Assembly: GCF_009866525.1 (NCBI RefSeq)
Contig: NZ_CM020866.1
Coordinates: 436,260 to 500,259 of the forward strand
DNA: 64,000 bases
Source of the DNA: Spiroplasma poulsonii
GTDB lineage: Bacteria > Bacillota_I > Bacilli_A > Mycoplasmatales > Mycoplasmataceae
Direction: 5' to 3'
The notes beneath the pieces are model-generated. The model was not told the DNA's origin. It saw nothing but the letters and a program-made list of their open reading frames with translations, and did no database searches. Shown one piece after another: positions 46,193-61,111 of this stretch. A program made the position numbers and the translations under genes. Each line of letters begins with the position of its first letter. Positions within the stretch are counted from its first letter, which is position 1.

Positions 46193-46221
46193 TTGCATTA
46201 CTAGCAATAATAAGTTATAGT
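46193..46221 (+). promoter_or_regulatory. promoter of the hpt-guaA riboswitch transcript
   Basis: TTGCAT (46193-46198), 17 bases, TATAGT (46216-46221). It places transcription start near 46228, about 16 bases before the aptamer. The -35 is identical to that of the S10 promoter. Confidence 0.65.
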
Positions 46222-46243
46222 TGTTGTGTGATAAAAATAAAAT

Positions 46244-46410
46244 GCTTATATATGTTAGTGTTATGGACTAACGTTTCTACATCTTACCGTTATTAAGATA
46301 CTATAGGTCATGAAGATTCTTTTGTTTTATTTTCTTGATTTAACAAAAATAATTTGCATAACCTATTTATAATTAACTATAATAGTTTATGCTTTTATTT
46401 TTTTTATTTT
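46244..46410 (+). promoter_or_regulatory. purine (guanine-type) riboswitch with terminator switch
   Basis: Aptamer: P1 GCTTATA (46244-46250) / TATAGGT (46302-46308); P2 GTTAGT/ACTAAC with L2 GTTATGG; J2/3 GTTTCTAC; P3 ATCTTA/TAAGAT with L3 CCGTTAT; J3/1 AC with cytosine at 46301, the position that selects guanine. Platform: terminator arms 46356-46367 / 46381-46392 (11 of 12 pair) and a T tract (46393-46410). ATAGGT at 46303-46308 (P1) is complementary to ACCTAT at 46361-46366 (terminator arm), so ligand binding should free the terminator and switch hpt-guaA off. 2'-deoxyguanosine-type variants are not excluded. Confidence 0.88.
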
Positions 46411-46431
46411 TGTAAAGGAGAATTATTAATT

Positions 46432-46956
46432 GTGCAAATGGAAAAACTAGAATTATACCTTTCTGAAGCTAAGATTCAAGAAGGAATCAAAACTTATGCG
46501 GAAAAAATTAATACCTTATATGCGGGAAAAAAATTATATTGTATTGGTTTAATGAACGGGGCCCTCTTTTTTATGGGTGATTTATTAAAACAACTTAAAA
46601 ATTATATTGTTGTTGATACAATGAGTGTTTCAAGTTATGAAAAAACAAATTCTACCAACAATATTACAATTCATAAAGATATTTCAAAAGATATTACCGG
46701 GCAAGATGTTTTGTTAATTGAAGACTTAATTGATACTGGGCAAACATTATCGGTTGTGATTGAAAAATTACAAGCAAAAAAACCAAATAGTTTGCGAGTG
46801 GTTTGTTTAGCAGATAAAATTGAAATGCATCCTGACTTTAAATATGATTATGATGCTTTATTTAATTTCCCAAATGAATTTGTGGTTGGTTATGGGTTTG
46901 ACTATGATGATCAATATCGTCAGTTACCCGATGTATATATATTTAGAGGTGAATAA
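46432..46956 (+). CDS. hpt: hypoxanthine phosphoribosyltransferase
   Basis: 174 aa; turns hypoxanthine/guanine plus PRPP into IMP/GMP. PRPP motif LLIEDLIDTGQTL and the flap (VDTMSVSSYEKT) are clear. GTG at 46432 lies 11 bases after AAAGGAG (46414-46420) and is my start; the ATG at 46438 is the alternative. The stop abuts guaA with the pattern TAA-ATG. Confidence 0.94.
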   Translation: MQMEKLELYLSEAKIQEGIKTYAEKINTLYAGKKLYCIGLMNGALFFMGDLLKQLKNYIVVDTMSVSSYEKTNSTNNITIHKDISKDITGQDVLLIEDLIDTGQTLSVVIEKLQAKKPNSLRVVCLADKIEMHPDFKYDYDALFNFPNEFVVGYGFDYDDQYRQLPDVYIFRGE

Positions 46957-48495
46957 ATGAAAACAGAAAATAAAATTATTATCTTAGATTTTGGATCACA
47001 ATATACGCAACTAATTGCTCGTCGTATTCGTGACTTAGAAGTATATTGTGAAGTGTGACCATACAATACACCGTTAGAAAAAATTAAAACAACCCCAATG
47101 AAAGGAATTATTTTATCCGGTGGTCCTGCTTCAGTTTATGCAGAGGATGCTTTTTTAATTGATTCAGAGTTACTTCAATTAGATTTACCAATTTTAGGAA
47201 TTTGTTATGGAATGCAGTTAATTAGTCATTTATCTGGTGGAAAAGTGCAACGAGCAGCGAAACAAGAATTTGGTTTTTCAGAATTAGTTATTGATGATCA
47301 CCACGATTTATTTGCTAATGTTCCAGTTAAATCACAAGTCTGGATGAGTCATGCTGATCACATTGAAGTTATGCCAAAAGATTTTGTTCAAATTGCGCAT
47401 AGTGCAAATTCAATTAGTGCAATTAGACATACAACGAAAAAAATTTATGGGTTACAATTTCATTCTGAAGTAACACATACTTTAATTGGTGAACAATTAT
47501 TAAAAAATTTTGTTTTTAAAATTTGCCAATGTGAAGCAGATTGAAAAATTTCAGAATTTATTACTATGTCAACAAGGGAAATTAAAACTAAAGTTGGTAG
47601 TCACAATGTTGTTTTAGCATTATCGGGGGGAGTTGATTCTAGTGTTTGTGCAGTCTTATTGCATCAAGCAATTGGTCAACAGCTAACTTGTATTTTTGTT
47701 GATACGGGGTTATTGCGTCAAGATAGTGGTTGACATGATTTACAAAAATTTCAAAAACAATTTGGTTTAAGCATTCTAAAAATTGATGCTAAAGAAAGAT
47801 TTTTAACAGCATTAAAAGGAGTTACTAATCCAGAACAAAAACGAAAAATTATTGGAAACTTATTTATTGAAATTTTTAATGAAGAAGCACAAAAAATTAA
47901 AAATGTTAAATGATTGGGGCAAGGAACGATTTATCCTGATGTGATTGAATCAGTATCAGTAAAAGGGCCTTCAGCAACAATTAAATCGCATCATAATGTG
48001 GGGGGATTGCCAAAAGATTTACCCTTTCAATTAATTGAACCATTACGCGAGTTATTTAAAGATGAAGTTCGTAAGACTGGTGAAGCGTTAGGAATTGATC
48101 ATCAATTTGTTTACAAGCATCCTTTTCCAGGACCAGGTTTAGCAGTTCGAATTATTGGTGAGATTACATCCGAAAAAGTAACATTACTACAAGCAGCTGA
48201 TCAAATTTTCATTGATGAGTTATATAATTTTGACTTATATGATCAAGTTGCTCAAGCTTTTGTTGTTTTATTGCCCGTTCAATCAGTTGGGGTAATGGGT
48301 GATGTTCGGACATATGGTTATACTGCTGTTATTCGTAGTGTTGATACAACTGATTTTATGACAGCGAATTGAAGTCGGTTACCGTTTGAACTATTAGATA
48401 AAGTTTCATCACGGATTGTTAGTGAGGTTCGTGGTATTAATCGTGTGACTTATGATATTACTTCAAAACCACCCGGCACAATTGAGTGAGAGTAG
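46957..48495 (+). CDS. guaA: GMP synthase (glutamine-hydrolysing)
   Basis: 512 aa; makes GMP from XMP. Glutaminase: [10 protein letters not shown], nucleophile in GICYGMQL, and FHSEV. ATPase: P-loop-like [11 protein letters not shown]-terminal dimerisation part ends PPGTIEWE with TGA as Trp. Co-transcribed with hpt under the riboswitch. Complete and in frame. Confidence 0.97.
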
Positions 48496-48662: not shown

Positions 48663-48714
48663 GGAATAAAGTAAGTGTTTACTGGATTTTACCAGCAAAC
48701 ACTTACTTTATTCC
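48663..48714. repeat. long perfect hairpin after guaA
   Basis: An 18-bp perfect inverted repeat (48663-48680 / 48697-48714) whose 16-base loop has a nested CTGG/CCAG pair, so the whole folds into a 24-bp interrupted stem. There is no T run on the plus strand, so it is not a typical terminator. It sits in the 300-base space between guaA and a small ORF that holds no other gene. Confidence 0.8.
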
Positions 48715-48981: not shown

Positions 48982-49066
48982 ATGGAAAAAGAACAAATTA
49001 CGAGCATCGATAATAATGTTAAATTATTATTAGCTCCCCATGAACGCCCAAAAACTTTTTTACAAT
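48982..49066 (+). pseudogene. uraA: uraA 5' fragment
   Basis: ATG with AAGGAGAA upstream; 28 codons (ending HERPKTFLQ) plus T. It continues across the insertions at 59691 (WSILSLQHVFAMFG), where the codon TGA=Trp is restored if one AAT repeat is removed. This is the start of a uracil permease of the NCS2 family. Confidence 0.9.
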
Positions 49067-59687: not shown

Positions 59688-61111
59688 AATGATCAATTTT
59701 ATCCTTGCAACATGTTTTTGCAATGTTTGGTTCCACAGTGTTAGTGCCGTTGATTATTAATCAAACAGCTGGTGTTGAAGTTATGAATATTTCAATGGCT
59801 TTATTTTGCTCGGGTGTTGGAACATTAATTTACATTGCCATTACGGCAGCAAAAGTGCCAATGTATTTAGGAAGTTCATTTGCCTATATTGGAGCAATGG
59901 GGGTTTGTTATCCTTTGTATGGAAATGCTATTTTTATTGCCGTAATGATGGTTGGAGTTATTTATATTACATTTGGAGTTTTAGTATATTTTATTGGTAA
60001 TAAATTTTTAGAACGACTATTGCCAGCAGTTATTGTTGGACCATTAATTATTATTATTGGAATGTCAGTTGCTCCGAGTGCTATTAATAATACTGGATTT
60101 AATCCAGCAGCTTGAAAAGAAAGTTATTCACATTGAATTGGAATTGGGATTGCAGTTTTTACTTTTTTGGTAACGGCAATTATTGCTTTAAAATGTAAGG
60201 GATTTGCAAAAGTAGTACTAGTTATTATTGGGGTTATAATGGGTTATTTATTATGTGTTATTTTGCATTTTGCAATTGGAACTCAATATCATATTTTAGA
60301 CACTTCAAAAATTAGTGACCCAAGTCAATGACAGTGATATCCTTCTTTTAAAAAAATTTGAGATTTAAAAGCAAGTAATATTGTCCCAGCAATTTTAGCA
60401 ATTAGTCCCTTGGCAATTATTGCCATTGCTGAACATATTGGTGATCATATTAGTATGGGACAAATGACAGGTAAGAATTTTGTTAAAGATCCTGGAATGC
60501 ATCGAACATTAGTTGCAGATGGGGTTTCAATTATTTTTGATGGCTTAATAGGAGGTCCTGCAAACACAACTTATGGTGAAAATGCCTCGGTTGTTGGAAT
60601 GACAAGAATTGCTTCAGTGTGAGTAACGGGATTCGCTGCCCTGTTTGCGATCGTGTTATCTTTTATTGCCCCGGTTAACCAGTTGGTTCAAATGCTACCA
60701 GGTCCAGTTATGTATGGGTGGTATTAGTATGATTATGTTTGGTTTAATTGCAACAAATGGAATTCGTGTTTTAATTAATAATCGGATTGATTATACCAAT
60801 ATGAAAAATGTCTTTGTAACAGCAATTATGTTAGTCTTAGGATTGGGGGGAGCAATTTTTAACTTTAATATTGGTAGTGGTAATTTACAATTTACGGGAG
60901 TTGCTTTAGCTGCTTTTGTTGGAATTTTCTTAAACTTACTTCTACCAGATCATCAAAATAATGGTTTTATATGGTGAGAAAAAATCAAGCTAATTATTAA
61001 AAAGAAAAAAGACCGCCCAAAAAAGTAAAAGATAAAAATGAACAAAAAGAAGAAGTAAGTCAAAACCAAAAAAATAATAAAAATAAGAAACCTAATAACG
61101 AAGATGATTAA
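59688..61111 (+). pseudogene. uraA: uraA 3' part, with two extra frameshifts
   Basis: Uracil permease, NCS2 family, with about 12 helices (LQHVFAMFGSTVLVPLI, then EHIGDHISMGQ, and GGPANTTYGENAS). One G too many at 60716-60718 (ATGTATGGGTGG) shifts the frame; one A too few in CCCAAAAAAG (about 61010-61017) shifts it again before the acidic/Lys end (NEDD-stop 61109-61111). With the IS and viral insert upstream, the gene cannot make a full transporter. Confidence 0.9.

Follow-up and report, generated by a model that had tools for sequence, protein, structure and literature searches.

The leader of the hpt-guaA genes of Spiroplasma poulsonii is very probably a cis-acting, transcription-terminating guanine riboswitch of the OFF type. 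It lies within the 64-kb stretch of genomic DNA analysed here (the window), and an Rfam scan of the entire window identified a purine aptamer at 46226-46323 of the forward strand as its sole riboswitch. Using cmscan, this segment matched the full length of the Rfam Purine model (RF00167) with a score of 55.3 bits and an E value of 9.5e-7, compared with a gathering score of 37 bits. Such a covariance search had been proposed along with the original prediction of a guanine-type switch, and its outcome bears the prediction out. Because the score is above the Rfam threshold, any Rfam-based annotation would name the element, and the hpt-guaA switch is an ordinary member of a well-studied riboswitch class. 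The elements of the leader and the genes that follow are listed below.

46193-46221 (+), promoter TTGCAT-17-TATAGT, with the -35 element at 46193-46198 and the -10 element at 46216-46221
46244-46308 (+), guanine-type purine aptamer, from the RF00167 match and ortholog covariation
46244-46250/46302-46308 (+), P1, seven pairs, two of which are G-U
46254-46259/46267-46272 (+), P2, from the RF00167 alignment read onto the sequence
46260-46266 (+), L2
46273-46280 (+), J2/3
46281-46286/46294-46299 (+), P3, from the RF00167 alignment in the same way
46287-46293 (+), L3
46251, 46274, 46278 and 46301 (+), core letters U22, U47, U51 and C74, respectively, from the model alignment
46303-46312 (+), antiterminator 5' strand, overlapping the P1 3' strand
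46357-46366 (+), antiterminator 3' strand, within the terminator 5' arm
46356-46411 (+), intrinsic terminator, with stem segments 46356-46361/46387-46392 and 46363-46367/46381-46385
46393-46411 (+), U-tract of the terminator
46414-46420 (+), ribosome-binding site AAAGGAG of hpt, read from the sequence
46432-46956 (+), hpt, hypoxanthine phosphoribosyltransferase (TIGR01203, 159 bits, cut-off 150)
46957-48495 (+), guaA, glutamine-hydrolysing GMP synthase of 512 amino acids (NF000848, 783.5 bits, cut-off 400)

Purine aptamers are present in all 14 genomes of the genus that were searched, including the host, with one to four per genome. Across the order, a sample of 298 genomes contained 58 with such an aptamer. 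The arrangement of an aptamer followed by hpt-guaA occurs in 11 of the 14. The aptamer parts of the host copy are complete, as had been claimed, with all core letters and kissing pairs kept, and the specificity cytosine falls at 46301 in the model alignment. The loop-loop pairs G37-C61 and G38-C60 correspond to 46265-46288 and 46266-46287. These pairs can form in all 11 orthologs, and G38-C60 is replaced by A-U in two of the genomes. Across the orthologs, 96.1% of the aptamer pair cells are standard, and the covariation score exceeds that of every shuffle. P1 is AU-rich. The leader as a whole (46244-46410) folds with a z score of -3.5, and none of 200 shuffles was equally stable.

The letters U22 (46251), U51 (46278) and C74 (46301) form the set of guanine sensors, which supports the predicted guanine type. 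The adenine class carries U at position 74 (PMC8872408) and was rejected, as 46301 is a C. Guanine-II and xanthine-II variants are distinguished by insertions in J2/3 (and J3/1) (PMC9295807); the junctions in the RF00167 alignment contain no insertion, so these variants do not apply. The 2'-deoxyguanosine classes have a C at the U51 position (PMC8872408) and were rejected on the U at 46278. That the aptamer nevertheless senses 2'-deoxyguanosine (or guanosine) instead of guanine, like the variants of Mesoplasma florum, is extremely unlikely. M. florum is a related mollicute of the same bacterial order, and its 2'-deoxyguanosine switch has the same layout of P1, antiterminator and terminator (PMC12268651), but U22 is also retained in the Spiroplasma aptamer, and the genes downstream serve base salvage and not ribonucleotide reduction. 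Guanine thus remains the predicted ligand. In genera of the family outside Spiroplasma, U at position 74, the letter of adenine sensors, was seen by eye in purine aptamers at L038, L040 and similar loci.

The promoter that had been described upstream of the aptamer is present, and the same promoter is found in all 11 orthologous leaders, as TTGCAW-N17-TATAKT ending 19-31 nucleotides before P1. Its -35 element is a weak match to the consensus, and the promoter scan does not list it. Downstream, hpt starts at GTG 46432 or ATG 46438, and the ATG of guaA follows directly after the hpt stop codon; both genes were translated with TGA as tryptophan. The identification of hpt and guaA agrees with the expectation that the leader would control this pair.

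The switch was predicted to work through mutually exclusive helices, in which ATAGGT of the P1 3' strand pairs either with the P1 5' strand or with ACCTAT in the terminator arm. The segment at 46303-46308 is indeed fully complementary to 46361-46366, and the alternative helix extends further than had been noted, with 9 of 10 pairs formed between 46303-46312 and 46357-46366. For the segment from U75 on, the pairing with the terminator arm is better than in 97.4% of dinucleotide shuffles. The automated terminator scan made no call here, probably due to the small number of G-C pairs in the stem and the long loop, and the terminator was revealed by folding and ortholog comparison. Over the 11 orthologs, 98.2% of its pair cells are standard, and two pairs show changes on both sides.

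Forced-structure energies of the growing transcript put the antiterminator about 5 kcal/mol ahead of the P1 state between 46366 and about 46390; these values are rough and take no account of Mg2+, of the contact between the loops or of kinetics. Once the terminator hairpin is complete (at about 46395), P1 plus terminator and the antiterminator are nearly equal in energy. If the P1 5' strand is blocked instead, the gap over the same stretch is 1-2 kcal/mol, again in favor of the antiterminator, with values used for the leader of the window only. The predicted competition between P1, antiterminator and terminator is consistent with these pairing and folding tests.

Eleven of the 14 genomes keep the promoter, the aptamer and the terminator; seven of them have a clear antiterminator, and in the other four it is weak. 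Column-by-column counting of pairs in the 11 leaders gave no compensatory change in the antiterminator. In the hpt leaders of G001, G013, G003 and G006, the P1 3' strand can again pair with the terminator arm, with different letters. There, the duplexes between the diverged P1 strands and the terminator arms of the same leaders reach -6.8 kcal/mol in G001/G013 and -4.7 kcal/mol in G003/G006, and 4-6% of shuffles were equally good. Within the genus, leaders of permease and lipoprotein genes show such pairing too. In G002, G005, G007 and G012 the antiterminator is weak, with duplex energies of -5.9 to -3.2 kcal/mol, which shuffles equal. An exclusive-helix platform is therefore supported for the host copy and in most, but not all, species of the genus.

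The events, as modeled, follow the order expected of a terminator switch turned off by guanine. On binding of guanine, P1 would close and hold 46302-46308, the hairpin at 46356-46392 would form, and RNA polymerase would halt in the U-tract before hpt-guaA. When guanine is absent, 46303-46312 would be released from P1 and pair with 46357-46366; this antiterminator would block the terminator, and hpt and guaA would be transcribed as one unit. The ligand, the sign of control, the kinetics and the co-transcription of the two genes are predicted here from sequence and structure.

The host genome (G000) contains four purine aptamers. The other three precede guaB, which encodes an IMP dehydrogenase (TIGR01302), a gene for a Bmp-domain lipoprotein, and a gene of the Xan_ur_permease family, which adjoins a purine nucleoside phosphorylase gene. 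Three of the four aptamers stand before purine genes, and the remaining one stands before a gene for a Bmp-domain transporter lipoprotein. Relative to the aptamers of G009 and G010, that of the guaB leader (L057, G000:C1:1938245-1938343) carries an additional A at J3/1. The platform of G004, G005 and G012 includes 24 bases that G000, G009 and G010 lack. The guaB leaders contain a hairpin, built from the P1 3' strand, that competes with P1; in G000, G009 and G010 it is directly followed by a U-rich stretch. The terminator scan gave no convincing match in the guaB leaders, so that control of guaB could have either sign. In the permease leader (L055, G000:C1:286274-286374), the L3 sequence ACCACTGTAATA of G010 reads GTAAATGTAACA, which removes the kissing CC, and the sequence upstream bears no relation to that in the relatives. 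The adjoining purine nucleoside phosphorylase gene is split in two frames, and this permease operon seems to be decaying.

These lesions within the same genome raise the question of whether the hpt-guaA aptamer is real but part of a switch that is leaky or no longer working in the symbiont, so that hpt-guaA would be expressed regardless of guanine. The loss of the L3 CC in the permease aptamer, the extra A in J3/1 of guaB and the weak antiterminators of four orthologs point in this direction, but the hpt-guaA copy keeps its core letters, kissing pairs, promoter, antiterminator and terminator, which makes a defective switch very unlikely. A working OFF switch before hpt-guaA is the reading we retain. 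More speculatively, and with the balance tilted against it, as many as four independent riboswitches may make up a guanine regulon in Spiroplasma (for hpt-guaA, guaB, the base permease with the phosphorylase, and the Bmp-type lipoprotein), and this regulon would be decaying piecemeal in the symbiont lineage. The guaB platform would have lost the 24-base segment, and perhaps its response would be lost or inverted; the upstream region and the kissing loop would be gone from the permease switch, and the hpt-guaA switch would remain intact.

The salvage-only purine economy that had been suggested for the host is supported as far as the searches reach. Searches of the host genome for purF and purH gave no match, with the same searches positive in 14 and 13, respectively, of 14 control genomes. 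Both purA and guaB are present, indicating that IMP, AMP and GMP are interconvertible, and a phosphoribosyltransferase that scores below the xpt cut-off was also found. Judged by gene content, purine salvage with interconversion fits the host, and in such an economy it would make sense to repress hpt and guaA, together with uptake, at high guanine supply.

The switch shares the three-way junction, the kissing loops and the U22/U47/U51/C74 core with the xpt-type guanine riboswitch of Bacillus subtilis (RF00167), in which the P1 3' strand is likewise part of the antiterminator, and the same guanine-OFF logic is expected of the Spiroplasma switch. It differs in that P1 and terminator are very AU-rich and in that it precedes hpt-guaA, in a mollicute that reads TGA as tryptophan. 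In Staphylococcus aureus, guaA is also under a guanine riboswitch, as part of the xpt-pbuX-guaB-guaA operon (PMC2858708), where one switch serves four genes, whereas the host genome has four separate switches (hpt-guaA, guaB, permease and lipoprotein). For the platform, the closest known parallel is the 2'-dG-I riboswitch of M. florum, for which the same competition between P1, antiterminator and terminator has been probed (PMC12268651); it has a C at the U51 position and a ribonucleotide reductase gene, in contrast to the U51 kept in Spiroplasma. A literature search found no paper joining "purine riboswitch" with Spiroplasma; the broader literature joining "riboswitch" with Spiroplasma, which includes an M. 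florum study (PMC7745072), was judged mostly by title and abstract. The arrangement suggests that RNA controls, at more than one step, how purines enter GMP in an insect-associated mollicute that depends on salvage. The sensitivity of S. aureus to a guanine mimic stemmed from the placement of guaA under a guanine riboswitch (PMC2858708), and Spiroplasma could therefore be a simple test system.

In G005, G007 and G012, guaA is followed by a permease gene that appears uracil-permease-like by inspection. This gene is split in the window (48982-49065 and 59690-60340), where two sites 10.6 kb apart match residues 1-28 and 29-245, respectively, of the protein fragment from G005, with transposase genes and plectrovirus-like DNA between the halves. 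DNA of the window matches plectroviruses of Spiroplasma citri and S. kunkelii at about 87%, and an IS5-family transposase in the window is a 99.9% match to an S. poulsonii plasmid copy. These matches place the DNA in a Spiroplasma of the citri group, with S. poulsonii as the probable species. Downstream of guaA, at 48663-48714, there is an inverted repeat of at least 18 bases (GGAATAAAGTAAGTGTTT), which is possibly a transcription terminator or the remnant of a small mobile element.
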